Source: a virus. From it: a DNA stretch of 64,000 nt. Shown one piece after another: positions 3,037 through 23,732 of this stretch. The first letter of the stretch is position 1. Each line of letters opens with the position of its first letter. A model generated the notes under the pieces. That model was not told the origin of the DNA. It searched no databases and saw only the letters and a list, made by a program, of their open reading frames with translations. The translations under genes were made by a program, and so were the position numbers. The stretch lies in IMG/VR virus record IMGVR_UViG_3300045971_000528, positions 1 to 64,000 of that record; one strand, given 5' to 3'.

Positions 3037-3060
3037 GATGTTTCTCTCCTTTGGAATGAC

Positions 3061-3078
3061 GGCTATCACTTGATAGCG
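3061..3078 (-). promoter_or_regulatory. palindromic leader hairpin before Ro60
   Basis: A near-perfect palindrome (GCTATCA/TGATAGC around a 2-nt centre) sits about 25 nt upstream of the Ro60 start. It could be an RNA processing hairpin between the ncRNA region and the mRNA, or an operator. Confidence 0.4.
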
Positions 3079-3183
3079 AATGATCAAAATCAACCTGTAC
3101 GACGAAAAGCGGGATCGGAGATTTCGGTCGCTACGTCGCAATGACGCGCTTCCTACACCCGTCTTGAGGCGACGAGTAACCTA

Positions 3184-8087: not shown

Positions 8088-8516
8088 TTATGGAGCCTTA
8101 GGTTGAAGCACGCCAACCTTGTGGAGGGCGGCGAGACGGCGCATCATGGCTAGAGCCTGAACGCCTGTCATGTCGGCGGGCAGGATGGTTGTCGGTAGAT
8201 GATTGGCTAGCATTGGGCTTTCACGCATCGTCTCATCAGAAACATGCATCATGTCCCACTCAGCAAATTCGCGAGCCTTGACATCAATGTAACGGAGGAT
8301 CATTGGATCCTTGTGGCGCCCGTCTCTGACGATCTTGTTGTAGAGACGATTGACCGTAGCACGCTCACCTTCCATCAACTGGATGTAGAGCTGAGGGCTA
8401 GTCACGATCATGCCGCTCACGCCGATGGATCGATTGCGAGCCTGATTGCTTTCGAAGAACGAAGCATTAGGAACTGGTCCAACCGGTATGGAGATGTAGA
8501 CAACCTGGATGACCAT
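8088..8516 (-). CDS. BLUF-domain blue-light photoreceptor
   Basis: 142 aa. All BLUF signature residues are present with family spacing: Tyr7 (VVYIS), Asn28 (QARNRSIGVSG), Gln46 (YIQLMEGE), Trp87 and Met89 (FAEWDMM). The Asn-Gln, Gln-Trp and Trp-Met distances are 18, 41 and 2 residues, as in AppA. BLUF domains bind FAD and rearrange hydrogen bonds under blue light. A C-terminal helical tail of about 50 aa, but no output enzyme, is present, so it would act through protein contacts. Located downstream of a coiled-coil membrane protein under a late-type promoter. Confidence 0.93.
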   Translation of the reverse strand: MVIQVVYISIPVGPVPNASFFESNQARNRSIGVSGMIVTSPQLYIQLMEGERATVNRLYNKIVRDGRHKDPMILRYIDVKAREFAEWDMMHVSDETMRESPMLANHLPTTILPADMTGVQALAMMRRLAALHKVGVLQPKAP

Positions 8517-10934: not shown

Positions 10935-12134
10935 TTAGTTCAGCTTCAAGATCGTCAGGTGCGCAGAGACCGAGCGAGTTCCACCTGCAAGAGGCGTGAT
11001 CGTCAGCGCTGTGGAATTCCCGGCTGGGTTCCGCACGGTCAGAATAGAGTTGATCACCGAGGTGGTGACTAGCGCGACTCCCTCAATCTGACTGGTGCCG
11101 GTTGCCCGACCAACAACTGTGTACGCCAAGTCGTTGCCGTTCAGTGTCAGAATGAGCTGGCCTGGTTCGGTGATGCTGACTTGGAACTGAACCAAGTACG
11201 TCCCGATCGTCGTCAGGCTGAATGAGCTTGCCGATAGACGAGCGATCGTTGAGCCTGAAGTAGGGCCGTTCTGCGGAAATGAAACGTCAGTGCCAACTCC
11301 AACTGTCGACGCGTTGTTCGGCGGCATCAGCGCGTAGAAGTCAGCGAATGCGATTACGCCATGCTCACTATCACCGCCAGCGGGACCCTGTGGACCTGTT
11401 GCGCCTTGAGGCCCAGCTGGACCTGTCGCTCCCTGTGGACCCGCAGGACCTGTTGCGCCAGTTGTACCTTGTGGGCCCGTTGCACCTGTTAGACCGATCG
11501 GTCCAGCAGGGCCAGTTGCCCCGTTCGTTCCGTTCGTTCCATTCTGACCTGCTGGACCTTGTGGACCCGTTGCTCCATCAGCACCTGCTGGACCTTGTGG
11601 ACCCGTTGCTCCATCAGCACCTGCTGGACCAGTTAGTCCTTGGGGTCCAGTGAGACCTTGAGGACCAATAGGACCGGCTGGACCTTGAGCTCCATTGGTT
11701 CCAGGCGAGCCAGCAGGACCTTGAGTTCCATCACGCCCGTCTCTACCATCACGCCCGTCGCGGCCATCTGTACCAGAAGGACCTTGTGGTCCAGCAGGAC
11801 CTTGTGGACCAACAGGTCCAGGTGGGCCAGGTGGGCAGATAGGTGGGCAGGGGTATACAGGAAAGCAACCACCCGGCGGCTTCCTCGGGAAGCTTTCATC
11901 GTCGTTACAATCGACTGGCGGCTTCGGCGGGCATGGGGGTTGGCCACCGCCGCCACCTACATTGCTCTCACTTGGAGCGTTCGTGATAGGTGTAAACCCC
12001 GATGAGATGATCGGTGCAGTGATGCCTGGAATGTTTGTGTCTGGGCCTGATGTAGTTTCAACAGGCGATCGAGCCTTCGCACGCGTTAGAACGTCGTTCA
12101 GCTCAATGAGGTATCGTTCAGTAGTTGCGAGCAT
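10935..12134 (-). CDS. collagen-like fibre protein with C1q/BclA-like head
   Basis: 399 aa. Residues 1-30 ([15 protein letters not shown]) form an N-terminal attachment segment shared with the next gene. A Pro/Cys-rich spacer follows. Residues about 105-250 are uninterrupted Gly-X-Y collagen repeats ([14 protein letters not shown] types). The last about 140 residues resemble the trimeric TNF/C1q-like jelly roll of BclA-type proteins. Probably a trimeric phage surface fibre. A late role is inferred from content. Confidence 0.85.
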
Positions 12135-12136
12135 AA

Positions 12137-12421
12137 TTACCCCTGTGCATCAAGCCTTGCGATGATTTGAGAAATTGCAAGTTCAATGGCAGCAAGACGT
12201 TCTTCAAGTCCATCGGGGCAACCCGGGCCTGGGGGTCCAGGTGGTCCGGGCGGGCCTTGTGGCCCTGGAAACATCGAACCGATGTTGATGATGTCATCTC
12301 CACTTGTAAGATAAGCACCCGCAATGTCCAGCGCTTCTAACGCACAGACCGGCCCGCTAGCTCTGCACCTTGTGAGAACTTGCGTCAACTCGATTAGCTG
12401 TCGCCCTGATGAATCTACCAT
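12137..12421 (-). CDS. short collagen-like protein
   Basis: 94 aa. The N-terminus ([15 protein letters not shown]) is homologous to that of the 399-aa fibre, followed by a short [13 protein letters not shown] collagen stretch and a C-terminal helix. Likely shares an attachment site or co-trimerises with its neighbour, whose start lies 3 nt downstream. Confidence 0.75.
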
Positions 12422-13898: not shown

Positions 13899-13922
13899 GA
13901 AAAGGGCCCGAAGGCCCTTTTC
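13899..13922 (-). terminator. intrinsic terminator of the cytochrome operon
   Basis: 10-bp stem GAAAAGGGCC/GGCCCTTTTC with a UUCG loop on the minus strand, 18 nt after the stop of the first cytochrome gene, followed by a T-rich tail. Confidence 0.85.
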
Positions 13923-13939: not shown

Positions 13940-14665
13940 TTATGCGAGCATCTTCTGCACTGCAGTCAGTGCATACTTCAAGAGAGTGTCGTAGGCCTGA
14001 GCGCACTTGAATGCTGCACTCGTCGAGTGGCACTGCTCGCACTGGTCTACAGTCACTGGGTGACCAGCAGTGTAGGCAGCCTTGCCCTTGGCAATCACGT
14101 TGTCGTGGCAGGTGACACAACCAGAAGTGACGCCAGCGTGGATCTGGTCATGCGACACGGTGTCCCATGCAGTGATCGCGAAGCTTGAACCATTTGCTGG
14201 AGTCGTGTGGCAGGTGCCGCACTCAGCAGTTGTTGGAACGTGGTTCGTTGGCTTTGTCAGAGCGTTGTACACCGATGCGTACGTACCACCGTGGCACTGC
14301 GAGCAAGCGATGTTGCTGACTGTTGAGTGGTTCATCGACCAAGTCGTGGTGAACGACGAGGTGAAGTGGCAGTTGTTGCACTCGAGCAGACCCGTTGGGA
14401 TGTGGTTTGCTGAGCGGGCGACGGTGACTCGTGCTGGGTCACCATTGTGGCATGCTACACAGTTCTTTGGTGTTCCGAGGAACACGCCAGCCTTGTGGCA
14501 TGATGCGCACGTGTTACACTTCCCAGTCGAGAGGTGTGCTCCATCGAGCGTAAAGTTCGGGTGCGATTGCTCGTACATCGAACATTCAGCCGCATGGGCG
14601 CCAGTGGAAGCGAACATGCTTCCAAGGAGGACCACCGCGGCTGCAAGTAGTTTTTTCAAGGACAT
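13940..14665 (-). CDS. periplasmic/secreted heptahaem c-type cytochrome
   Basis: 241 aa. Residues 1-26 are a signal peptide cleaved after AHA. Seven CxxCH sites follow (CASCH, CVACH, CNNCH, CSQCH, CGTCH, CVTCH, CEQCH) with many extra His available as axial ligands. The repeated NHIPT...C..CH pattern is typical of environmental multihaem cytochromes. Haem attachment requires the host Ccm system in the periplasm. Paralogous to the next gene; both follow an outer-membrane barrel gene. A late promoter lies 28 nt upstream. Confidence 0.95.
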   Translation of the reverse strand: MSLKKLLAAAVVLLGSMFASTGAHAAECSMYEQSHPNFTLDGAHLSTGKCNTCASCHKAGVFLGTPKNCVACHNGDPARVTVARSANHIPTGLLECNNCHFTSSFTTTWSMNHSTVSNIACSQCHGGTYASVYNALTKPTNHVPTTAECGTCHTTPANGSSFAITAWDTVSHDQIHAGVTSGCVTCHDNVIAKGKAAYTAGHPVTVDQCEQCHSTSAAFKCAQAYDTLLKYALTAVQKMLA

Positions 14666-14692
14666 CAGAATCTCCGTTACAAAAAGACGTCG

Positions 14693-14699
14693 TATTTAT
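14693..14699 (-). promoter_or_regulatory. late promoter (ATAAATA)
   Basis: CAATAAATAC 28 nt before the 14665 start; would give the first cytochrome its own transcript. Confidence 0.6.
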
Positions 14700-14724
14700 T
14701 GCCGGCCGCTGCTAGATACGCATT

Positions 14725-15405
14725 TTAGTTGTCCCAATTCCTGTACATCGTGCCGCGATTTCCGAGAGGCCGGTGGCACCCCACCTGTGAGCAATCGAGC
14801 GGAACGGGATTGCGTTGGAAATGCGTAAGCGACATCAACTCTCCATGACCGAGCCAAGTCTGTCCTGACAAGTGGCAGCCCTTGCACCAGCCTGCGCCGG
14901 ATCCAACGGTTCCATTGTGGTTCATCGTGACAGTAGTCCACACTGTGGTAGACGTGTGGCATGCCTTACAGTCGAGTGTTGAACCACCTAGAAGCTGCGT
15001 CGCTTCAGGGATGTGTTTGATTGGTTCGCCGAGAGCGCCAGCCCCGGTGTAGCTGCCATTGTGGCAGGTCTTGCACAACATCGTCGTCACCTTCGTGTGG
15101 CTGAATGTCGATGGCGTGAATGCGACTGTCGAATGGCAAGAGGCACAGTCCATCGTGCCGGTTGGAATGTGTGAAGCTGATCGATACACGGTGTTGCGTG
15201 CAGGATCTCCATTGTGGCAGTCGATGCAGTTCCTTGGTGTTCCGTTGAAGATCCGATTGATGTGACAAGATCCGCAGGTGGTGCACTTTCCGGTAGAGAG
15301 GTGGGCACCCGAGAGAATGTATAGTGGATGCGACTGTTCGTAGAGTGTGCACTCAGCGCCAAAAGCCGGCATGCAGAACATCAGGAGTAGAAGTATGAGT
15401 CTCAT
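14725..15405 (-). CDS. second multihaem c-type cytochrome
   Basis: 226 aa with a signal peptide cleaved near FGA. Six CxxCH sites (CGSCH, CIDCH, CASCH, CKTCH, CKACH, CKGCH) plus one expanded CSQVGCH (Cx4CH) that may bind a seventh haem. Shares YEQSHP...LxGAHLSTGKC and the NGDPAR...HIPTG repeats with the neighbouring cytochrome. Starts 1 nt after the stop of the barrel gene, so the two are co-translated. The expected role is electron transfer across periplasm or outer membrane. Confidence 0.94.
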   Translation of the reverse strand: MRLILLLLMFCMPAFGAECTLYEQSHPLYILSGAHLSTGKCTTCGSCHINRIFNGTPRNCIDCHNGDPARNTVYRSASHIPTGTMDCASCHSTVAFTPSTFSHTKVTTMLCKTCHNGSYTGAGALGEPIKHIPEATQLLGGSTLDCKACHTSTTVWTTVTMNHNGTVGSGAGWCKGCHLSGQTWLGHGELMSLTHFQRNPVPLDCSQVGCHRPLGNRGTMYRNWDN

Positions 15406-15406
15406 G

Positions 15407-17428
15407 TTAGAAGTCGGTGCGGACGCCGAGGTAGAATGATTGGTTGTAGGAAGTCACATTCGCTGCATTCAGCAGATCAAGAAGGCTAGTGCGAGTGATG
15501 CTGAAGGCAGTGTCAAGAGCGAGCGACTCTGAGAAATAGTAGTTCAGTCGGACTGAAAGCCCTGTGTTCGTGGTTAGCAAGCCTGGTTGGGTGCGAACAA
15601 AGTATCGACCGAGAAGTTCGAAGCTCATCTGACCGTACTTGAAGTTGTCGACGACCGTGATCGAGGTTCCACGCCCACCACCGAACATGAAGCTCGTGAT
15701 GACATTCAAGTTGTTGCCCTTGTACCAAGTATCAGTGCCAGATAGCATCAAGTTCAGCGTGGTGTTCTTGCCAGTTCCAGCCTGCGAAGTGATCGAAGCT
15801 GGCAGATCGAGTGTAGAGATTTGGTCGATGCTAGTACCCGAGATGCTGGACACCTGAATGTCGGAACCGAGAGTCCACTTTGGTGTCAGTGTCGTGGTGG
15901 TGCCGAGCATGAATGTCGTGCTCATCGGTGTAGAGCCGGCGATGTACTTGTAGATCTGATCTTGCGACAGACCAGAGTTCGCGAACACATCACCTACTGA
16001 TGTGAACGGCTTCCGATCGATGGTGCCGAAGCCCAACATCGTTGAACGTTCAGCGAACAGAACAGGTGCCTTACGATGATCGATCATGAAGTACGGCGAC
16101 GTGAACCCAAGGGATGTGCGGCCCTGGAACATGAGAGTGTTCAACGCCTTGTACAACAGATCGTACTCGACAATGAGTGAGGAACTCAGCTGTTGGCTTG
16201 ATTGGAACACCTCGACACCGACAGCTTGTCGTTCTGCGTGTCCGTCAGCGATGCTGTGATTGTAGTACAGATCTCCTGAGAACTTTTCAGTGTCCAACTG
16301 GTAACCTACGCCAAAGAACTTCCGACTTGTCGACGAGGTCCCGACATAAGGCACGCCTCCCAGAAGGACAACCTTTGACTTTGGATCCATTGCGTAGTTT
16401 GCCACAATCCCATCGAATCTGCCAAGCGTGCCGTAACCCGAGGTCATACGACCGACCTTGATGCCCATGTCTCGGAAAGTGTCTTGCACGTCCACCGACA
16501 CGGTCGATAGATTCTGCTTCGACGATTCAGGGTGCATGAGGTTGTCGGTGCGTGAGTATCGAATGGCCACCTTCGTGGTGATCTCGTCTGCTCGATACGT
16601 TCCGGTGACACGACCGTTTGTAATCAGCGCGGAGTCGGATCGCTGAAAACTGGTGGCTGAGGGAGAGTTCGAGCTGATGTAGTAGTACTCAGACACTGAG
16701 GCGGCCGTCTTTGCATCGACACCTTGGTGTGGTTGTCGTGCCTCGAACCGGCTTGCGATCACCTTCGGTTGAGCAATCTCCAGTGAGATAAGCCGCTGCT
16801 GGATCCGCTTGAACTCAGGGCTGTCAGGGTACATCGTCAGGTAGAACTTGTACTCAGCCTTGGCCTTCTCGAACTTGCCTGCCTTCTCTTGTGCGAAGCC
16901 TGCGAGTTCCTGTGCCTCCATCGTGGCAGCAGTTGGTGACATCATCAAGATGGCGTTCAGCGATTCGAGTGCATCATCAGTGTCGCCGTTCTCTGCAAGC
17001 ACCTTCTTTGCCAATGCAAGCAGCTCCTCGGGTGTTCGCTTGTTGGTGATCATGACCACCTCTGGTTGCTGAGCTTCGGCTACCACGACAGTGAGAACGT
17101 TTTCACGCAGCAAGATGCGGTATGGCATGCGATGATCGAGGGTGATCACGATGCGCGTGCGGTCAGGTGTTGCGAGAACCTTCACCTCTCGAGTGTGTGG
17201 CTTGTCAAGGAATTCCTGATCACGCTTCTCTGGGCCCTTGGAGGGCAGATCTACTACGATCCGATACGGTGCTTCCAGCTCGAAAACGGTGGGCGGCCCA
17301 GCGACTGGATCAGTGAATGAGATCTTGGTGATCTCGGCATTTTCCGATGCGCGCACCACAATGCTCTGCAGAGAATTCGCACTGCAGATCGAGGTGATGA
17401 AAAGCAAAGGAAGAAGTATCCACCGCAC
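15407..17428 (-). CDS. outer-membrane barrel protein with AMIN and TPR domains
   Basis: 673 aa from GTG at 17428, which has GGA 6 nt upstream and yields a clean signal peptide ending SICSA; an upstream GTG at 17455 is possible. Residues about 25-115 match an AMIN domain (as in PilQ), about 130-225 are TPR-like helices, and 260-673 are alternating beta strands ending in RTDF, with the C-terminal Phe of BAM-inserted barrels. Genes for two multihaem cytochromes follow immediately. I infer a porin-cytochrome-like conduit; MtrB/PioB homology cannot be shown here. Confidence 0.8.
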   Translation of the reverse strand: MRWILLPLLFITSICSANSLQSIVVRASENAEITKISFTDPVAGPPTVFELEAPYRIVVDLPSKGPEKRDQEFLDKPHTREVKVLATPDRTRIVITLDHRMPYRILLRENVLTVVVAEAQQPEVVMITNKRTPEELLALAKKVLAENGDTDDALESLNAILMMSPTAATMEAQELAGFAQEKAGKFEKAKAEYKFYLTMYPDSPEFKRIQQRLISLEIAQPKVIASRFEARQPHQGVDAKTAASVSEYYYISSNSPSATSFQRSDSALITNGRVTGTYRADEITTKVAIRYSRTDNLMHPESSKQNLSTVSVDVQDTFRDMGIKVGRMTSGYGTLGRFDGIVANYAMDPKSKVVLLGGVPYVGTSSTSRKFFGVGYQLDTEKFSGDLYYNHSIADGHAERQAVGVEVFQSSQQLSSSLIVEYDLLYKALNTLMFQGRTSLGFTSPYFMIDHRKAPVLFAERSTMLGFGTIDRKPFTSVGDVFANSGLSQDQIYKYIAGSTPMSTTFMLGTTTTLTPKWTLGSDIQVSSISGTSIDQISTLDLPASITSQAGTGKNTTLNLMLSGTDTWYKGNNLNVITSFMFGGGRGTSITVVDNFKYGQMSFELLGRYFVRTQPGLLTTNTGLSVRLNYYFSESLALDTAFSITRTSLLDLLNAANVTSYNQSFYLGVRTDF

Positions 17429-17457: not shown

Positions 17458-17463
17458 TATTTA
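17458..17463 (-). promoter_or_regulatory. late promoter (TAAATA) of barrel-cytochrome operon
   Basis: TTAAATAGT immediately upstream of the candidate GTG starts. Confidence 0.5.
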
Positions 17464-17475
17464 AGGGATGGTATG

Positions 17476-17551
17476 TGGTACGTCCGAGTGGGTTCGAACC
17501 ACCGGCCTTCGCCTTCGGAGGGCGATGCTCTTCCAACTGAGCTACGGACGT
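17476..17551 (-). tRNA. tRNA-Arg(CCG)
   Basis: 76 nt with encoded CCA. Acceptor ACGTCCG/CGGACGT pairs fully; anticodon loop CTCCGAA gives CCG; T loop TTCGAAC is canonical. Reads CGG. Confidence 0.9.
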
Positions 17552-17557
17552 ATTGTT

Positions 17558-17629
17558 TGGACCCTCCGGAGGGATTCGAACCCACGTTCCACGGCTTAGA
17601 AGGCTTGGCCCGTTCCAATCGGCGGAGAG
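17558..17629 (-). tRNA. degenerate tRNA-like RNA (possible Arg TCT)
   Basis: 72 nt. Acceptor CTCTCCG/CGGAGGG and CCA are intact and the T loop is TTCGAAT, but the D arm is shortened and the arm around CTTCTAA (TCT) pairs for only two base pairs. Abuts the stop of the 105-aa gene. May be a pseudo-tRNA or a non-decoding mimic. Confidence 0.5.
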
Positions 17630-17630
17630 A

Positions 17631-17948
17631 TTATGGTTGTCGTTTGATCTTGTCGAGTTCCTCTTGAATGAACTGTTCTGTTGAGCGTTCATCCTTAGGT
17701 GGCTCGCACTGATGTCGAATCGATCCGAAGAAAGCTGCGATGTTCTCGCTGTTCTTGCCGAGAGTCTGCATGACCTCGACCGATGCAAACAGCATCACAC
17801 CGCAGATGATCAAATACACGAGGAACGAATTGCTCTCGTCAGGCTCCGGCAGGAACTTCTTGAATAGACCCTTCATCTTGAACACAACCGCCACCAGAAT
17901 GGCGATGGTGATGAGGACTACCCAGATTGATGTAGGAATACCGCACAT
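17631..17948 (-). CDS. two-TM small membrane protein
   Basis: 105 aa. Helices at about residues 7-25 and 42-60; the cytoplasmic or periplasmic tail is charged. ATG at 17948 lies 4 nt after a TAAATA box, so either the transcript is leaderless or another promoter is used. Not recognised. Confidence 0.65.
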   Translation of the reverse strand: MCGIPTSIWVVLITIAILVAVVFKMKGLFKKFLPEPDESNSFLVYLIICGVMLFASVEVMQTLGKNSENIAAFFGSIRHQCEPPKDERSTEQFIQEELDKIKRQP

Positions 17949-17952
17949 CAAC

Positions 17953-17959
17953 TATTTAT
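17953..17959 (-). promoter_or_regulatory. late-type box 4 nt before ATG
   Basis: CATAAATAG, then GTTG and ATG. The same 4-nt spacing recurs at 28.6, 46.1 and 60.2 kb. Confidence 0.45.
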
Positions 17960-17969
17960 GGAGCGTTGC

Positions 17970-18137
17970 TCAGAGCGCTGCGATCTGAGCACGAAGCTCG
18001 GCGATTTGACGCGTCTTGCCTGGGACATTGATCTCGGCAGCGGACGAAGACTTCTTCTGAAGCGAGAGACGCAGTTCGGTCTCGAGGGCTTGCAGGCGCT
18101 CAGTCAGTTTGAGCTTCTTCTTGTCGGCGTTTGCCAT
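17970..18137 (-). CDS. small charged coiled-coil protein (55 aa)
   Basis: 55 aa, Lys/Glu/Leu-rich with heptads at both ends (LKLTERLQALETELRLSL). Preceded by GGAG. Unknown function, within the tRNA cluster. Confidence 0.6.
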   Translation of the reverse strand: MANADKKKLKLTERLQALETELRLSLQKKSSSAAEINVPGKTRQIAELRAQIAAL

Positions 18138-18156
18138 GATGAACTCCAGTGTTGAT

Positions 18157-18230
18157 TGGTAGGAGCACTGAGAATCGAACTCAGGCCATCCGGGTAAAAG
18201 CCGGAGACGCTGCCATTACGTCATACTCCC
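18157..18230 (-). tRNA. tRNA-Lys(TTT)
   Basis: Acceptor GGGAGTA/TGCTCCT (with terminal wobbles), anticodon stem TCCGG/CCGGA with loop CTTTTAC giving TTT, encoded CCA. Confidence 0.85.
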
Positions 18231-18238
18231 ATGGAATT

Positions 18239-18363
18239 TGGTGGTGATGGAAGGAATCGAACCTCCCCTGGCTTTGGATGATAAAGATAACCAATCGCGG
18301 CCGGTTGTTTTGCAACTAAAAATGCAATCGATGTTTCCGTGCTGTCCACTACACTACATCACC
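18239..18363 (-). tRNA. expanded 125-nt tRNA-like RNA
   Basis: Acceptor GGTGATG/CATCACC, D arm and T arm are tRNA-like and CCA is encoded, but about 70 nt separate the D and T arms where 22 are normal. The insert contains TTGCA/TGCAA with an 8-nt loop and a TTGG/CCAA hairpin whose loop starts TTATC (GGTTATC motif). Either an intron-like insertion or a chimera of tRNA and the Y-RNA-like family. Decoding cannot be assigned. Confidence 0.5.
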
Positions 18364-18374
18364 ATTGTTCTTTG

Positions 18375-18450
18375 TGGTGCCCCATTGGGGAGTCGAACCC
18401 CATCCCACGGACTACAAAACCGTTGTGCACTCCTCATTCACTCACGGGGC
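18375..18450 (-). tRNA. tRNA-Thr(TGT), probable
   Basis: Acceptor GCCCCGT/ATGGGGC and CCA intact; loop TTTGTAG gives TGT with a T-T mismatch closing the anticodon stem. Reads ACA. Confidence 0.65.
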
Positions 18451-18456
18451 ATTGTT

Positions 18457-18527
18457 TGGCGCGCCTGCACGGAGTCGAACCGCACTGCCTTTGGCTCTTT
18501 GGCTGCCTCCAGCAAATCCCTCGGCGC
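18457..18527 (-). tRNA. degenerate tRNA-like RNA without U33
   Basis: 71 nt. Outer acceptor GCGCC/GGCGC, T loop TTCGACT and CCA are present, but the region where the anticodon should be has no T at all, so the universal U33 is missing. Unlikely to decode; pseudo-tRNA or mimic. Confidence 0.5.
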
Positions 18528-18533
18528 ATTGTT

Positions 18534-18609
18534 TGGTGGGACCGGTGGGAGTTGAACCCACAACCTATCGGTTAAGAGCCGAGTGCTCTGCCAGTTGAGC
18601 TACGATCCC
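18534..18609 (-). tRNA. tRNA-Lys(CTT)
   Basis: Canonical cloverleaf: acceptor GGGATCG/CGGTCCC, loop CTCTTAA giving CTT, T loop TTCAACT, encoded CCA. Confidence 0.92.
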
Positions 18610-18619
18610 ATGAAATACT

Positions 18620-18733
18620 GCAAGCAAAAGTGAAGTCGGTAAACCTCTTTCGAGGGTGTCGGGCTTTGAATCCCGCTCTAGCTGATGGCCGAAGGCCAAT
18701 GCATTAACCGATAACCGATTTTCAACGGCTTGC
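18620..18733 (-). ncRNA. structured RNA, Y-RNA-like family member A
   Basis: 114 nt closed by GCAAGC/GCTTGC, then TGAA/TTCA and TCGGT/ACCGA. Internal hairpins include TGGCC-TTC-GGCCA, CGGG-(TTCAAA loop)-CCCG resembling a T arm, and CCTC-GAAA-GAGG. It contains GGTTATC at 18710-18716 and has no CCA or anticodon arm. It shares layout with RNAs at 22.0 and 23.5 kb. Confidence 0.55.
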
Positions 18734-18740
18734 GTGTTTG

Positions 18741-18926
18741 TTACGGCTGACTACGTGCGAGTGATTCGGCTCTTAGCCAATCATCTAGCTCGAACCCGGG
18801 TTCACGGCCCCGTGCTTCGTACATTTGGTACGCGACCTGCTCGACGTCGAAAGGAACCCGCTGCACTTCATGCACAACTGGGGTCTCGACAGCAGGTACA
18901 ACCTTCTTGATTCTCTTAGTAGCCAT
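18741..18926 (-). CDS. DUF2934-like small protein
   Basis: 61 aa. The C-terminal half reads AYQMYEARGREPGFELDDWLRAE, matching the DUF2934 pattern (helix, RG-PG, DDWL-AE). The N-terminus is basic. Common in bacteria and phages; function unknown. TAAATA lies about 40 nt upstream. Confidence 0.75.
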   Translation of the reverse strand: MATKRIKKVVPAVETPVVHEVQRVPFDVEQVAYQMYEARGREPGFELDDWLRAESLARSQP

Positions 18927-18966
18927 TTCGCTCTCCTGTTATTGTTGTTGTCGCGAATCGACTCGC

Positions 18967-18973
18967 TATTTAT
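18967..18973 (-). promoter_or_regulatory. late promoter (ATAAATA)
   Basis: GATAAATAG upstream of the DUF2934-like gene and the RNAs beyond it. Confidence 0.5.
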
Positions 18974-18974
18974 C

Positions 18975-19046
18975 TGGCGTCGCCGCACGGACTCGAACCG
19001 CACCGCTCTGTGACCCGGGAAATCACAGTAGCCATCCATTGACGAC
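18975..19046 (-). tRNA. tRNA-Gly(CCC)-like, reduced D arm
   Basis: 72 nt. Acceptor pairs for six bp, T loop TTCGAGT and CCA present. Long stem CTGTGAT/GTCACAG with loop TTCCCGG gives CCC. The D arm is reduced to three weak pairs. Confidence 0.6.
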
Positions 19047-19052
19047 ATTGTC

Positions 19053-19155
19053 TGGCGGCGCACCGATGAATCATGGTCCTTCCGACGGGTTGCCGCGGCT
19101 CACCGTCATCCTATCACCACGAAACGGAGATTTGCAACTCTCCGCTCTTTGCGCC
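19053..19155 (-). tRNA. expanded tRNA-Cys(GCA)-like RNA, 103 nt
   Basis: Acceptor GGCGCA/TGCGCC with CCA. The D arm is absent; CGGAGA/TCTCCG follows the acceptor directly and carries an 8-nt loop GTTGCAAA containing GCA. A long insert with GACGG/CCGTC precedes a non-canonical T arm. Probably a degenerate or repurposed tRNA-Cys. Confidence 0.45.
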
Positions 19156-19161
19156 ATTGAT

Positions 19162-19236
19162 TGGCGGGCCGGACGGGAATCGAACCCGCATGAACTTCGT
19201 AGACAGCGAAGTGCCTTACCAGTAGGCTACCGACCC
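19162..19236 (-). tRNA. tRNA-Asp(GTC)
   Basis: Canonical: acceptor GGGTCGG/CCGGCCC, loop CTGTCTA giving GTC, T loop TTCGATT, encoded CCA. Confidence 0.92.
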
Positions 19237-19244
19237 AATGTTTG

Positions 19245-19574
19245 TTACTGCACCTTGTCAGGGTACTTGGCGTCCATGACGTCGATCGCATTGTGCGGAC
19301 TCGTTCCGATGTCCAACAGCGTGATCTTGTCAGATGCAAAGCCATTCTCGACGGTGATCAGGGATTCATCGGCACTGACGCCGCCCTTGTACTTGCCGTC
19401 GCCCTTCTTGTGCATCAACTTGCCCGTTGCCGGATCAACCGAACCCCATTCAGGAGTGTGTGCGCCTACGATCGGCTCGACAAAGTACGAGCGACCGGTA
19501 CGCTGTGAGTAGACGATGAAGCGGCCAGTTTCGTCCGTGTTCGTGAGGAACCGGGAACGTAGGGTTGCAGTCAT
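19245..19574 (-). CDS. hypothetical protein (109 aa)
   Basis: 109 aa, soluble. The first half looks like a beta-strand domain (GRFIVYSQRTGRSYFVEP). No known motif. A weak CAAATA variant of the late box lies upstream. Sits inside the tRNA cluster. Confidence 0.7.
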   Translation of the reverse strand: MTATLRSRFLTNTDETGRFIVYSQRTGRSYFVEPIVGAHTPEWGSVDPATGKLMHKKGDGKYKGGVSADESLITVENGFASDKITLLDIGTSPHNAIDVMDAKYPDKVQ

Positions 19575-19612
19575 AGTCTTCTCCTGGGTTATGGACTTCC
19601 GTCCGGGTTATT

Positions 19613-19686
19613 TGGCAGAGGGTGTAGGAGTTGAACCTACGTCTACTGAGTCAGAGTCAATCATGCTACCGTTGCACCAACCCCCA
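19613..19686 (-). tRNA. tRNA-Gln(CTG)
   Basis: Starts with T1 and has G73 as in Gln tRNAs; anticodon stem ATTGA/TCAGT with loop CTCTGAC gives CTG; T arm GTAGG/CCTAC; encoded CCA. Confidence 0.8.
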
Positions 19687-19697
19687 ATTGTTCTATC

Positions 19698-19772
19698 TGG
19701 TAGGATGTGTCAGAATCGAACTGACATAGTTGCGATGTGAACGCAACTGGTAACCACTCCCATCAACATCCT
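19698..19772 (-). tRNA. tRNA-Val(CAC)
   Basis: Acceptor AGGATGT/ACATCCT perfect; loop TTCACAT gives CAC; T loop TTCGATT; encoded CCA. Confidence 0.88.
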
Positions 19773-19779
19773 ATTGTTC

Positions 19780-19853
19780 TGGTCCCTCCGTCAGGAATCG
19801 AACCTGCTTCTCGCGGTTATCAGCCGCGGGCTCTACCATTGAGCTACAGAGGG
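19780..19853 (-). tRNA. tRNA-Ile(GAT)
   Basis: Acceptor CCCTCTG/CGGAGGG, stem CGCGG/CCGCG, loop CTGATAA giving GAT, encoded CCA. Confidence 0.9.
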
Positions 19854-19859
19854 AAATTC

Positions 19860-19942
19860 TGGTCGTGATGGACGGAATCGAACCGTCTTAGTCTTTCGAC
19901 ACACCTTATGAGGGTGGCGCATTGCCTTAATGCTACATCACG
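19860..19942 (-). tRNA. tRNA with CAT anticodon and long variable arm
   Basis: 83 nt. Acceptor CGTGATG/CATCACG and T arm GACGG/CCGTC are perfect. Loop CTCATAA gives CAT (Met or lysidine Ile). The variable region is a GTC-GAAA-GAC hairpin, a class II feature not expected for CAT tRNAs, and it also matches GNCGAAAG. Isotype uncertain. Confidence 0.75.
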
Positions 19943-19945
19943 TTG

Positions 19946-20140
19946 TTAGTACCCGTAGCCGCCATACCCGCAGCCAAAGCCAAGTGGGTGGTACGGATAG
20001 CCTTGATAGCCAGGGCCGCATCCACGATAGCCGCTGTAGCAGCGATGGTGGTTGGAGAGCATCATGATCTCCATTATGGTTGGGCCACTGTGGCGGTGAA
20101 AGTATGGAGCGCCGTAAGCGCCGAAGAATGGGTAGTTCAT
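19946..20140 (-). CDS. Gly/Tyr/Pro-rich small protein
   Basis: 64 aa, rich in Gly, Tyr, His and Pro (GFGCGYGGYGY at the end). ATG at 20140 is 1 nt after the upstream stop, with GGTGG 6 nt before. Low complexity; similar in style to the next gene. Function unknown, perhaps adhesive or structural. Confidence 0.6.
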   Translation of the reverse strand: MNYPFFGAYGAPYFHRHSGPTIMEIMMLSNHHRCYSGYRGCGPGYQGYPYHPLGFGCGYGGYGY

Positions 20141-20141
20141 G

Positions 20142-20366
20142 TTAGTACCACCCATGGCTGAGGCCGCCAAAGTTGTTCGAATTCGCTACCTGCGAAACTC
20201 CAGCCATCACACCTGCATTGTACAGGCTTTGATTGATGTTTGAAATCTGGCTGTCGATGATGCTGTTGCCATAATCTGGGAATACGTACTGTGGGTACGG
20301 GTAGCCATACGACGGGTAGCGGCGATTGAATTGTGGGTAGTACCCTGGGCCATACATGCGGGACAT
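20142..20366 (-). CDS. Tyr/Pro-rich small protein
   Basis: 74 aa. The first 32 residues are Tyr/Pro/Gly-rich (PSYGYPYPQYVFPDYG) and the rest is an Asn/Ser-rich helix. Preceded by AAGGAGAC and a TAAATA box 58 nt upstream. Function unknown; forms a pair with the Gly/Tyr protein. Confidence 0.65.
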   Translation of the reverse strand: MSRMYGPGYYPQFNRRYPSYGYPYPQYVFPDYGNSIIDSQISNINQSLYNAGVMAGVSQVANSNNFGGLSHGWY

Positions 20367-20423
20367 TGTCGTCTCCTTTTTCTTCTTGTTGTCAGACGGC
20401 CTGGACTCATGATCCAGGTAACG

Positions 20424-20429
20424 TATTTA
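20424..20429 (-). promoter_or_regulatory. late promoter (TAAATA)
   Basis: GTAAATAC upstream of the Tyr-rich gene pair. Confidence 0.55.
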
Positions 20430-20454
20430 CATCTAGCCGCTCATGTGTACAAAT

Positions 20455-20531
20455 TGGCTGGCCATCTAGGAATCGAACCCAGCATCTCCGCATTAACAGT
20501 GCAGCGTGTTCACCTTGCTTACTCATGGCCA
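20455..20531 (-). tRNA. tRNA-Asn(GTT)
   Basis: Acceptor TGGCCAT/ATGGCCA perfect, stem CTGCA/TGCGG, loop CTGTTAA giving GTT, G73, encoded CCA. Confidence 0.9.
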
Positions 20532-20537
20532 ATTTTG

Positions 20538-20611
20538 TGGAGCCCCCTGTCAGAATCGAACTGACGTCCAAGCCGTACGAAGACCTTGTACTACCACTGT
20601 ACTAAAGGGGC
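20538..20611 (-). tRNA. tRNA-Thr(CGT)
   Basis: Acceptor GCCCCTT/AGGGGGC, stem AGGTC/GGCTT, loop TTCGTAC giving CGT, T arm GTCAG/CTGAC, encoded CCA. Confidence 0.88.
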
Positions 20612-20615
20612 GTAA

Positions 20616-21302
20616 TTAGAACTTAAACTTGGCGCCCTTTACATATCCTTGCGCCAAATAGTTTTCGAGTTCCGTTTTCTTTATTCGTTTGGCATGTATA
20701 CTGTTATGAATCCAGCAGGTGCCAAATTGAGAATTCTTTTCGCCTTGTTGAAATGCACGATCTGCCCAGGTGGCTTTTCGTTTTTCCCAGGCCTCACTTG
20801 TCTGTGATCGTTTGCTCATTTCTTTCAGACCATCGCCAACTGCACATCCAGTAACAACACGGCCTGATGAATAAGCTGTTTTCAACCCAGTGGTTATCTT
20901 TTGGGATGTTTTTGCTACCCACTCTGGATCTGTTTCGCGCAACACACGCATTCGCTTGTTGCCCTTGATACCCTTTGCCCGCTGCACTTCTGCATTCAAG
21001 TTTTGGTGTTCAAAACCACCTTCACCGCCATACTTCAAGTTGATGTTCAACGGGTTGGCAAGCAGCACTTCATTGACGATTTCCTTCTCACGAAGTTTCA
21101 ATGCTTCGCGGTCTGGGCACATCTCAACGATTTCTTTCTTGTGGTTCTCGTCGCCATGTTTGGCACGCGAGTAACCCAGAATTTTCCCACTACCAAGATA
21201 GCCATCCTCGAGGTTGTCTGTCGAGTGCATCCCTACGTAGAACTTGCCTGTGACTTGACAAGTCGTTCTGTAGATGTAGTGGTATTTCTTCTGTCGGCGC
21301 AT
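20616..21302 (-). CDS. GIY-YIG homing endonuclease (Seg-like)
   Basis: 228 aa from ATG at 21302, preceded by AAGGAGAA and a TAAATA box. Residues 6-30 contain YIYRTTCQVTGKFYVGMHS, the GIY-YIG core with both Tyr. The C-terminus has the SQFGTCWIHN segment found in phage Seg/I-TevI-type DNA-binding regions. Inserted between tRNAs, as is typical for free-standing phage homing endonucleases. Confidence 0.9.
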   Translation of the reverse strand: MRRQKKYHYIYRTTCQVTGKFYVGMHSTDNLEDGYLGSGKILGYSRAKHGDENHKKEIVEMCPDREALKLREKEIVNEVLLANPLNINLKYGGEGGFEHQNLNAEVQRAKGIKGNKRMRVLRETDPEWVAKTSQKITTGLKTAYSSGRVVTGCAVGDGLKEMSKRSQTSEAWEKRKATWADRAFQQGEKNSQFGTCWIHNSIHAKRIKKTELENYLAQGYVKGAKFKF

Positions 21303-21319
21303 ATCGTTCTCCTTTGTCC

Positions 21320-21325
21320 TATTTA
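21320..21325 (-). promoter_or_regulatory. late promoter (TAAATA)
   Basis: GTAAATAG 17 nt upstream of the GIY-YIG start. Confidence 0.6.
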
Positions 21326-21352
21326 CAGGAACCGGGAACAATACGACCTGAA

Positions 21353-21428
21353 TGGGTGCTCGACGGGACTCGAACCCGCAACGACGAGAATCACAATCTC
21401 GGGATCTACCAATTGATCTACGAGCACC
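21353..21428 (-). tRNA. tRNA-His(GTG)
   Basis: Extra 5' G opposite C73 as in His tRNAs; acceptor GTGCTCG/CGAGCAC; loop TTGTGAT gives GTG. Only CA of the CCA end is unambiguous. Confidence 0.88.
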
Positions 21429-21436
21429 ATCGAATT

Positions 21437-21512
21437 TGGGCAGACGGGTGGGGTTCGAACCCACAATATCGCCTTCACAGGGCGAGGTGTTACCAATTAC
21501 ACTACACGCTGC
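21437..21512 (-). tRNA. second tRNA-His(GTG), bulged acceptor
   Basis: Loop CTGTGAA gives GTG and C73 fits His. The acceptor pairs GCAG/CTGC then CG/CG only with a one-nt bulge. D arm GTGT/ACAC and T arm GTGGG/CCCAC are sound. Possibly degenerating. Confidence 0.65.
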
Positions 21513-21520
21513 ATTGTAAG

Positions 21521-21596
21521 GGGGGATACAGGTGGGAATCGAACCCATCGTCGCTCAGGCAAACCCCGAGTGCTCTACCATTGAGCTACAACATCC
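21521..21596 (-). tRNA. tRNA-like RNA, isotype undetermined
   Basis: D arm and T loop TTCGATT are canonical; acceptor pairs about six bp. The anticodon stem is either five bp with G at position 33 or six bp with a 5-nt loop GTTTG. CCA is not encoded. Probably non-decoding. Confidence 0.45.
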
Positions 21597-21602
21597 ATTG
21601 TT

Positions 21603-21664
21603 TGGCTCCGACGTGCTGGGCTAACCAGTTACACGTTTCTCCCGGCTCATAACTCCCCATCGGA
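21603..21664 (-). tRNA. 62-nt minimal tRNA-like RNA
   Basis: Acceptor TCCGATG/CGTCGGA pairs all seven bp and is followed by G and CCA, yet the whole RNA is only 62 nt. The T-arm-like hairpin CTGG/CCAG has a shortened loop and no standard anticodon arm is visible. Confidence 0.4.
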
Positions 21665-21688
21665 TTGGGAGCGCGGGCGTGGCTTGAT

Positions 21689-21765
21689 TGGTGGAACGTA
21701 CGGGGAATCGAACCTCGTATCACGCGATTTAGTACCAATCTGCTGAGTAATCGCAAAAACGTCCC
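21689..21765 (-). tRNA. tRNA-like RNA, rearranged core
   Basis: 77 nt. Acceptor GGGACGT/ACGTTCC, T loop TTCGATT and CCA intact. The core favours GCGATT/AATCGC rather than separate D and anticodon arms. Anticodon cannot be assigned. Confidence 0.45.
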
Positions 21766-21771
21766 ATAAGA

Positions 21772-21845
21772 TGGCGGCCCCAGCGGGACTCGAACCCGCT
21801 TCGCAACGTAGACAGCGTCGCATAATACCCATATACCATGGGGCC
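21772..21845 (-). tRNA. tRNA-Asp(GTC), second copy
   Basis: Acceptor GGCCCCA/TGGGGCC, stem CGACG/CGTTG, loop CTGTCTA giving GTC, encoded CCA. Sequence differs strongly from the copy at 19.2 kb. Confidence 0.85.
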
Positions 21846-21851
21846 ATTGTT

Positions 21852-21940
21852 TGGTACACCTGATGGGACTCGAACCCACTAACAGCCTCTCGGCTTACTG
21901 GGTTGAAAGCCCAGCCACTCGACCCTTTGTATTCAGGTGT
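21852..21940 (-). tRNA. class II tRNA with TTC anticodon
   Basis: 89 nt. Acceptor ACACCTG/CAGGTGT, anticodon arm CTGGG/CCCAG with loop CTTTCAA (TTC), and long variable arm AGCC-GAGA-GGCT. TTC normally belongs to class I tRNA-Glu; a normal Glu(TTC) lies next to it. Charging identity uncertain. Confidence 0.8.
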
Positions 21941-21949
21941 ATTGAATTT

Positions 21950-22024
21950 TGGTACTCCCGAACGGTTTCGATCCGTCTTCTCCGCCTTGAAAGGGCAGCG
22001 TCCTAGCCAGTAGACGACGGGAGC
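21950..22024 (-). tRNA. tRNA-Glu(TTC)
   Basis: Acceptor GCTCCCG/CGGGAGT, stem CTGCC/GGCGG, loop CTTTCAA giving TTC. T loop reads ATCGAAA (T54 replaced). Confidence 0.85.
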
Positions 22025-22028
22025 ATAG

Positions 22029-22106
22029 TTCCAACAAATGCCTTTCGGCGTGCGGTCCAGGGGGGGATCGTGAAAGGATAACCCTGAGTTGCGAAGCGGT
22101 TGGAAT
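22029..22106 (-). ncRNA. structured RNA, Y-RNA-like family member B
   Basis: 78 nt closed by TTCCAAC/GTTGGAA. Contains CAGGG/CCCTG with GGTTATC at 22077-22083, and the hairpin GCC-GAAA-GGC that fits GNCGAAN(0-1)G. No CCA, no anticodon arm. The end CATTTGTTG resembles family member C. Confidence 0.6.
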
Positions 22107-22110
22107 GTTT

Positions 22111-22184
22111 GGTACCCACTACTGGAGTTGAACCAGTCGCCTCTTCGATGTCAACGAAGCGTTCTACCGATGAACTAAGTGGGT
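22111..22184 (-). tRNA. tRNA-Val(GAC)
   Basis: Acceptor ACCCACT/AGTGGGT, stem CTTCG/CGAAG, loop TTGACAT giving GAC, T arm ACTGG/CCAGT, encoded CCA. Its 5' end overlaps the last codons of the 22.2 kb endonuclease gene by 10 nt. Confidence 0.88.
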
Positions 22185-22834
22185 GATGTTCTTGTGAAAC
22201 ACTTTTCGAGTGTATCTGGAAAGTATCTCTTCATCCATCCGTGGATCTTCTGTGGTTTCATCCCAAGAAGATCTGCGGCCTGCTGAACCCATCCGAACTT
22301 GCTAAAGTCGATGTTCGCTTGAACTAACTTCTTCATTCGCTGTTCGGCGATGTTCTGGCGTTTCTGTTCAACTGGAAGATGAACTGGTTTTCTAACTGCT
22401 TCGACGAAAACATTCAGATCCCTATCCTTCGAGAGGAGAAACTTCTGAAAGTCGTCAAGGCACTGTTGTGTATCCTTGTAAAGACGCTGCCATTCGATGC
22501 GATAAACGCTCCACCCTTTGGTGTTCAAGAACTTATCTCTGATCGCATCCTTTTGGGTCTGTCCATCACGACGATGTTGACATCCGTCGATCTCAAGATC
22601 GACCATAAACTCGGCGAATGCGAAGTCTAAGAAATACTTGCCACATCGTTGTTGTTCGATAACGAGAACGCCTTTGAACCGTTGATCCTCAGACAGAACT
22701 TTTCGGAACCAACGCTCTGGATAACTCGATCGAGTCAGATCCTGGTTCTTGTGCGCCCATCCTGGGTGTCTGCCTTCAGCATGCGCCGCCTTCTGTTTTT
22801 CCGACAACTTTCGGCGGGTTTCTTCGCTCGTCAT
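22175..22834 (-). CDS. Vsr-fold (EDxHD) homing endonuclease
   Basis: 219 aa. The N-terminus SEETRRKLSEKQKAAH is a NUMOD3-like DNA-binding motif. The centre reads DFAF..FMVDLEIDGCQHRRD...RDKFLNTKGWSVYRIEW, the Vsr/DUF559 nuclease signature of I-Bth0305I-type homing enzymes. GGAGGT and a perfect TATAAATA precede the ATG. Lies within the tRNA cluster and clips the adjacent tRNA-Val. Confidence 0.85.
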   Translation of the reverse strand: MTSEETRRKLSEKQKAAHAEGRHPGWAHKNQDLTRSSYPERWFRKVLSEDQRFKGVLVIEQQRCGKYFLDFAFAEFMVDLEIDGCQHRRDGQTQKDAIRDKFLNTKGWSVYRIEWQRLYKDTQQCLDDFQKFLLSKDRDLNVFVEAVRKPVHLPVEQKRQNIAEQRMKKLVQANIDFSKFGWVQQAADLLGMKPQKIHGWMKRYFPDTLEKCFTRTSPT

Positions 22835-22855
22835 TTCGAACCTCCGTGTTGATTG

Positions 22856-22863
22856 TATTTATA
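22856..22863 (-). promoter_or_regulatory. late promoter, exact TATAAATA
   Basis: Exact T4-type TATAAATA 21 nt upstream of the Vsr-like endonuclease start. Confidence 0.75.
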
Positions 22864-22878
22864 CGGAGGTTCGAATGT

Positions 22879-22958
22879 TGGACCGTCAAACAGGACTCGA
22901 ACCTGCATTTTCATCCATTACCTTACTCGACGTTCGTAGCGTCGGTGGCTATTGACGG
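22879..22958 (-). tRNA. tRNA-Arg(ACG)-like, no D arm
   Basis: 80 nt. Acceptor CCGTCAA/TTGACGG and T arm GCAGG/CCTGT fine; CCA encoded. CGACG/CGTCG with loop CTACGAA (ACG) follows only 7 nt after the acceptor, so the D arm is missing, and a 21-nt segment fills the variable region. Confidence 0.55.
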
Positions 22959-22959
22959 A

Positions 22960-23035
22960 TGGACCCTCTGGCGGGACTCTAACCCACAACTGAACGTTCG
23001 TAGCGTTCTATGATCTACAGTTTCACCACAGAGAG
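22960..23035 (-). tRNA. tRNA-Arg(ACG)
   Basis: Acceptor CTCTCTG/CAGAGGG, stem GAACG/CGTTC, loop CTACGAA giving ACG. T loop TTAGAGT has A for the usual C56. Confidence 0.8.
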
Positions 23036-23041
23036 ATTGTT

Positions 23042-23115
23042 TGGTGCCTCAGTACGGAATCGAACCGTCTTCTCGCCCATACCAAGGGCGTGTACGACCA
23101 ATGTACTACAGAGGC
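23042..23115 (-). tRNA. tRNA-Thr(GGT)
   Basis: Stem CGCCC/GGGCG with loop TTGGTAT gives GGT; acceptor GCCTCTG/CTGAGGC with one T-T mismatch; encoded CCA. Confidence 0.85.
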
Positions 23116-23122
23116 TTTGTTC

Positions 23123-23198
23123 TGGCCCGACCTGTTGGTTTCGATCCAACCTCTCCGCGTTTTCAGCGCAGCGCTTTCACCAGATTAGCTAAAGCCGG
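23123..23198 (-). tRNA. tRNA-Phe(GAA)
   Basis: Stem CTGCG/CGCGG with loop CTGAAAA gives GAA; acceptor CCGGCTT/AGGTCGG; T loop ATCGAAA; encoded CCA. Confidence 0.88.
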
Positions 23199-23204
23199 TT
23201 TGTT

Positions 23205-23279
23205 TGGCACCGTGTACGAGAATCGAACTCGTTTTCCCGCGCTGAGAACGCAGTTTCCTATCCAGTAGAAGAACACGGT
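23205..23279 (-). tRNA. tRNA-Glu(CTC)
   Basis: Acceptor ACCGTGT/ACACGGT, stem CTGCG/CGCGG, loop TTCTCAG giving CTC, G73, encoded CCA. Confidence 0.85.
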
Positions 23280-23285
23280 ATTATT

Positions 23286-23361
23286 TGGTGCGTCGCCAGG
23301 GACTTGAACCCTGACATGTCTCCTTAAGAGGGAGGTACTCTGCCACTCGAGTTCGCAACGC
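23286..23361 (-). tRNA. tRNA-Lys(CTT), second copy
   Basis: Acceptor GCGTTGC/GCGACGC, loop CTCTTAA giving CTT, T arm CAGGG/CCCTG, encoded CCA. Confidence 0.88.
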
Positions 23362-23368
23362 ATTGTAT

Positions 23369-23457
23369 TGGCAGAGGAGGTAGGACTCGAACCTACAAGG
23401 TCATTACAACCGTCTGCTTCAAAGGCAGATGCGTCTACGCGATTTCGCCACTCCCCT
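23369..23457 (-). tRNA. class II tRNA with TTG anticodon
   Basis: 89 nt. Acceptor AGGGGAG/CTCCTCT, Leu-like D arm (GGCGAAATCGCGTAGACGC), stem TCTGC/GCAGA with loop CTTTGAA (TTG, Gln codon CAA), and long variable arm GGT...ACC. G73 and the long arm are SerRS-type features; anticodon is Gln. Isotype uncertain. Confidence 0.78.
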
Positions 23458-23466
23458 ATAATTCAA

Positions 23467-23549
23467 AGACAACAAGTGGAAGGAACGGGTAGCCTTTCGG
23501 CAAATCAGATTTATGGTCAGATGAGATAACCATTCCAGTTCGGTTGTCT
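23467..23549 (-). ncRNA. structured RNA, Y-RNA-like family member C
   Basis: 83 nt closed by AGACAAC/GTTGTCT. Contains ATGGT/ACCAT hairpin whose loop begins TATC (GGTTATC at 23525-23531) and the hairpin GCC-GAAA-GGC. Ends CACTTGTTG, like member B. No CCA or anticodon arm. Confidence 0.6.
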
Positions 23550-23555
23550 ATTGTT

Positions 23556-23650
23556 TGGCTCCGTCGGAGAGCTTCGAACTCCCATATTACGCCCTGCGGC
23601 CTTTACGTCTGGTTAACAGCCAGGTCTCTTACCAGTTAGAGTACGACGGA
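23556..23650 (-). tRNA. tRNA-Asn(GTT) with 25-nt variable arm
   Basis: 95 nt. Acceptor TCCGTCG/CGACGGA, loop CTGTTAA giving GTT, U1-A72 and G73 as in Asn tRNAs, but a 25-nt variable region with a GCC-GCAG-GGC hairpin. Looks like a tRNA-Asn with an inserted arm. Confidence 0.78.
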
Positions 23651-23658
23651 ATTGTTCT

Positions 23659-23732
23659 TGGCGGGCCGTGAGAGAATCGAACTCCCACCGAAGGTTTTGG
23701 AGACCCTCGTGCTACCACTACACCAACAGCCC
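23659..23732 (-). tRNA. tRNA-Trp(CCA)
   Basis: Acceptor GGGCTGT/ACGGCCC, stem AGGGT/ACCTT, loop CTCCAAA giving CCA, G73, encoded 3' CCA. First tRNA of the cluster in the direction of transcription. Confidence 0.9.

Follow-up and report, generated by a model that had tools for sequence, protein, structure and literature searches.

The first 64,000 nucleotides (nt) of IMGVR_UViG_3300045971_000528, a 106,081-bp virus record that is itself a fragment, carry a three-gene cassette that resembles a bacterial porin-cytochrome complex (this leading 64-kb stretch is called the window below). On the minus strand, from position 17428 to position 13940, an outer-membrane barrel gene is followed in one direction by genes for two secreted multihaem cytochromes (MHCs), MHC-A and MHC-B, with gaps of 1 nt between barrel and MHC-A and 59 nt between MHC-A and MHC-B. 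A preliminary description of the DNA had placed an AMIN-TPR barrel and two signal-peptide cytochromes (seven haem sites; six plus one Cx4CH) here and called them a phage-borne porin-cytochrome module distinct from MtrCAB; its coordinates were exact and this characterization was upheld. Barrel and cytochromes are homologous to parts of the betaproteobacterial PCC3, a putative porin-cytochrome complex (He et al. 2017, PMC5566968; Gallionellaceae survey, PMC10734462). The cassette is a miniaturised, phage-adapted PCC3 derivative, probably acquired once from a Methylophilaceae-like host. Judging from sequence, it is also reasonably probable that it is expressed late and forms an electron conduit in the outer membrane, fed by quinol oxidation of host or phage. 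Homology, gene architecture, recurrence in viruses, conserved haem sites and histidines, purifying selection and late-type promoter boxes were observed directly; membrane insertion, complex formation, electron flow with its direction, and a benefit to the phage are inferred from them.

The barrel gene (15407..17428, minus strand) encodes 673 amino acids (aa) from a GTG start codon, with an alternative in-frame GTG possible 27 nt upstream. Its product has a signal peptide, an AMIN domain at residues 26 to 105 (17114..17353, minus strand; Pfam PF11741, E = 9e-7, 29.4 bits, cut-off 20.5), a TPR-like helical region at residues ~139 to 219 (16772..17014, minus strand), where Pfam TPR matches lie just under their cut-offs and the structural model has helices at 133 to 219, and a predicted 22-strand beta-barrel at residues 237 to 673 (15410..16720, minus strand). 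The AlphaFold2 (AF2) model has a mean predicted local distance difference test score (pLDDT) of 79, and its 22 strands, counted by hand from the secondary-structure output, fall within residues 237 to 672. Comparison with betaproteobacterial clusters had been proposed in the preliminary description; a barrel profile matches the porins of bacterial PCC3-like clusters at 1e-43 to 1e-121, and a porin tree agrees with this assignment. The same description had allowed for a secretin or polysaccharide porin. That identity (BcsC, PgaA, AlgE) was rejected because sequence homology puts the barrel with PCC3 porins, and no Pfam or NCBIfam match points to it. In Foldseek the resemblance to BcsC, a cellulose exporter (9b8a), was weak (template modelling score, 0.22 to 0.25), and the generic matches of that search were left out of function assignment.

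MHC-A (14725..15405, minus strand) is a secreted cytochrome of 226 aa with six CXXCH sites and one CX4CH. MHC-B (13940..14665, minus strand) has 241 aa, seven CXXCH sites, seven other invariant histidines and a C-terminal helix, and is a paralogue of MHC-A with 46% identity. None of 20,000 shuffles of either protein reached its CXXCH count (shuffle maximum, 3), and no other frame of ≥60 codons in the window has even two CXXCH. In an alignment of 15 MHC-B sequences, the seven CXXCH and exactly seven other histidines (H35, H44, H88, H113, H142, H176, and H202) are invariant. This is the number that bis-His ligation of every MHC-B haem, which is putative, would require.

Both proteins have an N-terminal block, GAHLSTGKCxTCxSCH...F.GTPxxCxxCHNG, with a counterpart in bacterial extracellular PCC3 cytochromes. 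The CX4CH site of MHC-A, CSQVGCH (14773..14793, minus strand), lies inside a C-terminal signature, DCSxxGCHxPLGxxGxxYxxW, and the MHC-A C terminus, DCSQVGCHRPLGNRGTMYRNWDN, matches those of two bacterial PCC3 cytochromes, DCSQSGCHKPLGNKGTVYKSWT (L125, Methylophilaceae) and DCSKSGCHAPLGPEGSAYSSW (L071). The extracellular type is therefore recognizable in the N-terminal blocks of both proteins and in the C-terminal signature of MHC-A, and MHC-A looks like a PCC3 extracellular cytochrome from which most middle repeats are missing. In the preliminary description the Cx4CH site and the AMIN domain set the locus apart from classical MtrCAB. The idea that the Cx4CH site and the AMIN-TPR layout are phage inventions was rejected: bacterial PCC3 extracellular cytochromes carry the Cx4CH signature too, and bacterial PCC3 porins have the same TPR-barrel arrangement.

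Profile scans found the cassette in 21 other viral loci, near-duplicates included, on contigs as long as 369 kb with a GC content of 0.35 to 0.56. The order barrel, MHC-A, MHC-B is kept across these loci, although a few lack MHC-A or have no readable copy of it. Six of 15 cassette-bearing records encode a T4-type capsid protein, Gp23, and six of 15 a Terminase_6N; the 106-kb window record matched neither. A single-sequence scan of viral contigs with MHC-B gave nothing, the viral loci being found by alignment-based scans; the barrel alignment A3 was itself too divergent to search the collection with. No match to the cassette turned up in GenBank phages or PLSDB plasmids, and PHROGs had no significant family for the barrel, MHC-A or MHC-B. 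Ratios of nonsynonymous to synonymous substitution (dN/dS) between close phage pairs were 0.13 to 0.22 for the barrel, 0.04 to 0.18 for MHC-A, 0.07 to 0.14 for MHC-B and 0.08 for a short inner-membrane protein described below. The cassette genes are therefore under purifying selection and maintained.

Misassembled host DNA had been named as a possible explanation in the preliminary description. It was ruled out by the presence of the cassette on many viral contigs, some of which also encode capsid and terminase. More broadly, a misassembly or a non-functional relic, which the missing Terminase_6N and Gp23 matches of the window record would suit, is exceedingly improbable: the viral contigs with cassette and phage genes are independent, the viral versions cluster as a clade of their own, dN/dS is 0.04 to 0.22, the phage-type late boxes are not present in the bacterial copy L009, and a cluster of 26 tRNAs (17476..23732, minus strand; ARAGORN) lies directly upstream of the cassette in phage context.

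A T4-type late-promoter-like box, AATAAATA (14693..14700, minus strand), ends 27 nt before MHC-B, and a TAAATA box (TTAAATAG; TTAAATA; 17458..17463, minus strand) stands 29 nt ahead of the GTG start of the barrel. In the window, the minus (coding) strand holds 31 copies of TAAATA and the plus strand one, and the box precedes MHC-B in 10 of 13 phages, where local rates predict 0.58. The late-type boxes of the preliminary description were thus found again and, taken together with Gp23 in relatives, fit T4-type late transcription of the cassette. Where a strong terminator had been described earlier, a stable terminator-like hairpin, GAAAAGGGCC-TTCG-GGCCCTTTTC, stands 3' of MHC-B (13899..13922, minus strand; -21.7 kcal/mol, z -2.96); its T-tract is short, for which reason the consensus terminator scan did not list it.

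The published PCC3 layout comprises a porin, an extracellular MHC, a periplasmic MHC with 21, 24 or 27 haems and an inner-membrane protein (IMP) with two HX13H motifs (PMC5566968, PMC10734462), and bacterial loci are called PCC3 here by this layout and by haem counts rather than by reference-sequence search. In searches with profile hidden Markov models, barrel homologues adjoin cytochromes of 10 to 74 haems in Burkholderiales and other Gammaproteobacteria. In eight bacterial loci with wide flanks the barrel stands beside an MHC of 10 to 62 haems, most also having one of 24 to 27 haems and several an IMP of ~300 aa. The barrel profile matched 23 of 399 Burkholderiales genomes (down to 9e-93) and 23 of 187 Methylophilaceae genomes (up to 405 bits, above all matches in the order, class and phylum samples), both extremes excluding one Methylophilaceae metagenome-assembled genome, G008. 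In a porin tree of 52 sequences, the phage proteins group with a single Methylophilaceae copy (100/100), and this clade is nested within a clade with the other Methylophilaceae porins (100/98 and 100/99), in a tree with a long phage branch and with Methylophilaceae sampled more completely than other families. Likely sources are methylotrophic Methylophilaceae and relatives, not the classical metal-respiring model bacteria implied when a metal- or electrode-respiring host was first suggested.

In G008 the phage-type cassette (MHC-B, barrel, MHC-A) lies amid bacterial genes on a 2-Mb contig, and an IMP and a 27-haem periplasmic cytochrome, or wire, are encoded on a separate contig. Searches of this genome found no PCC3 porin beyond the phage-type one, and the only PCC3-type cytochromes found for it are the phage-type set. 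If the binning is right, the inner half that works with the phage-type outer half in this organism is bacterial. Cytochrome c maturation-like genes stand directly behind PCC3 in four of six Methylophilaceae loci read (L125, L126, L127, and L128, where they follow the porin and were recognized by sequence). Another Methylophilaceae genome encodes a PCC3 cytochrome of 2551 aa with 74 CXXCH (L124:6952-14607, minus strand; the published maximum is 85).

Several phages also encode the inner-membrane part. Six viral contigs encode a short IMP of 145 to 160 aa, which adjoins the cassette in L035, L046 and L006 and is separate from it in L088, L089 and L098. This version retains both HX13H pairs but lacks a middle part of ~150 residues. 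A full-length IMP is found on a 48-kb viral contig from a relative of the window phage, where 5 of the 16 genes of its 11-kb stretch match the window record. Directly ahead of the full-length viral IMP gene lies an open reading frame for a secreted His-rich protein of ~60 aa, preceded by a GTAAATAG box (L103:102-290). On L098 (9394-10468) the short IMP gene directly follows a gene for a ClpP-like protease, and genes resembling those of ClpX and ClpS lie close to it, all named by visual inspection.

We predict the following. Late in infection, the AMIN-TPR barrel would insert into the host outer membrane. MHC-A and MHC-B would be exported to the periplasm, loaded with haem by the host and thread through or cap the barrel, forming a conduit. 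Electrons from quinol would arrive through a PCC3-type inner-membrane di-haem b protein, in several phages the short phage version; for phages without their own IMP, host IMP and host 27-haem wire would supply them. The infected cell might then pass electrons to the outside (or draw them in) and remain energised while acceptors within the cell are scarce, as in oxygen-poor humic or iron-rich freshwater. Some of the IMG samples are probably of freshwater origin. The phage may in this way maintain or reroute host respiration toward the cell exterior. A further-reaching proposal, which we put forward tentatively, is that large T4-type phages encode a full miniature trans-envelope conduit (di-haem b quinol oxidiser, short cytochromes and porin) without the 24-27-haem wire, with infected methylotrophs respiring extracellularly until lysis.

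The favoured direction of flow is outward, with humics, Fe(III) or other compounds as acceptors, because methylotrophs with PCC3-type genes were recovered from anoxic humic water and this use of the genes was put forward for them as a hypothesis (PMC6344600). The reverse, a conduit that draws on Fe(II), humics or partner cells to supply the quinone pool with electrons during infection, would accord with the proposed role of PCC3 in Fe(II) oxidation by iron oxidisers (PMC5566968) and with the view that porin-cytochrome conduits are reversible (PMC10734462). It is nevertheless decidedly improbable, as oxygen-short methylotrophs would have electron donors in excess (hypothesis, PMC6344600) and PCC3 of S. 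lithotrophicus ES-1 was down-regulated on Fe(II) (PMC8788666).

Several observations weigh against an electron conduit. Electron transfer has been demonstrated for PCC3 nowhere, its function being putative (PMC12442390), and the ES-1 response counts here as well. MtrB is not among the top 50 Foldseek matches of the barrel, which are only generic barrels (OprD, TonB-type, FimD), so that the fit of a cytochrome inside the barrel is conjectural. The AF2 model of MHC-B was poor (pLDDT 41.5) and was not used. No IMP lies within the 106-kb window record, a fragment. Finally, profile searches found no 24-27-haem periplasmic cytochrome in 15 viral records or the viral collection, while the same profile found it in bacterial genomes searched alongside; the link across the periplasm must therefore come from the host or from MHC-A and MHC-B.

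The missing wire would also suit two rival readings. In the first, the cassette masks a receptor or excludes superinfection: a small look-alike displaces or hides a host PCC3 receptor, and redox chemistry is incidental. Homology to large host surface proteins and late-type boxes, appropriate to a role near lysis, are consistent with this, but a mask would need neither the seven CXXCH and seven other histidines that are invariant across 15 MHC-B sequences nor the inner-membrane cytochrome b that several phages keep with both haem-ligand pairs, and we consider it unlikely. In the second, MHC-A and MHC-B buffer haem or electrons in the periplasm or protect against reactive oxygen, and the barrel serves another export task. 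The cytochromes are small, soluble-looking and c7-type, and BcsC also has a TPR-barrel layout; yet barrel and cytochromes occur together in nearly all loci and are both homologous to parts of a single known cluster, which makes separate tasks quite unlikely.

If the conduit reading is correct, phages govern how a cell is electrically connected to its environment, and iron, humic and methane-linked carbon cycling would be affected in lakes and wetlands where PCC3-bearing Methylophilaceae and relatives live. The viral metabolic genes of which we know concern photosynthesis, nutrients or single enzymes. A minimal natural PCC3 (7-haem cytochromes versus 10 to 85 haems; a 150-aa IMP) makes the putative function of a widespread complex easier to study by expression and structure, and the pattern of shrinkage marks the parts that selection keeps: the HX13H pairs, the seven haem sites with seven other histidines, and the barrel.

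Besides 27 tRNAs, the window record encodes a Ro60-like protein and a tRNA nucleotidyltransferase of phage type, and 7 of 16 genes of the related locus L002 are matched in it. Among the latter are the Ro60/TROVE-type RNA-binding protein (1429-3141, minus strand; phrog_850), with 65% identity to the L002 protein, and a saccharopine-dehydrogenase-like protein (6420-7460, minus strand) with 41% identity to its counterpart. A protein with a BLUF blue-light sensor domain (8088-8516, minus strand; Pfam, 9.9e-18) has unknown genes as neighbours, and two neighbouring proteins with collagen-like Gly-x-y repeats (10935-12421, minus strand) lie just downstream of the cassette region. Beyond the window, the same record encodes an ABC-transporter-like set named by eye (ATPase, NitT/TauT-like permease, and substrate-binding protein; G000:C1:98789-102580).

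Among known systems, PCC3 is nearest. The phage cassette shares with it a homologous porin with a TPR region, gene adjacency, the extracellular-type MHC with the N-terminal GAHxxxxxC...GTPxxCxxCH block and the C-terminal Cx4CH signature and, in several phages, an IMP with two HX13H motifs. It differs in having cytochromes of 4 to 7 haems rather than 10 to 85, two paralogues rather than one, no 21-27-haem periplasmic cytochrome, an IMP mostly of 145 to 160 rather than ~300 aa, and late-type phage boxes. MtrCAB, MtoAB and PioAB follow the same principle of an outer-membrane barrel with multihaem cytochromes, but the phage barrel has 22 predicted strands versus 26 to 28. Membership in MtrCAB was rejected on this strand number, on the missing MtrB fold match and because no Mtr family (MtrB-type barrel, DmsE-family decahaem MtrA) matched above Pfam or NCBIfam cut-offs; a sequence search of the Protein Data Bank gave a weak haem-repeat match only (6r2q chain A, E = 0.0018).

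Other extrachromosomal elements are comparable in part. Borgs of Methanoperedens archaea carry multihaem cytochromes and are thought to augment extracellular electron transfer (PMC11208441); in contrast to the phages with T4-type capsid genes described here, they are archaeal and have no outer membrane or porin. Phages with pmoC (PMC7674155) and viral AlaS (PMC11480375) are large freshwater phages that likewise carry genes of host energy or haem metabolism, and the viral AlaS paper points to bogs rich in extracellular electron transfer (PMC11480375). Neither study describes phage cytochromes or a conduit, and the words cytochrome, heme and porin are absent from the main text of PMC7674155. Full-text searches of the open-licence literature of PubMed Central, a scope outside which preprints fall, returned no earlier report of a phage-borne porin-cytochrome complex.

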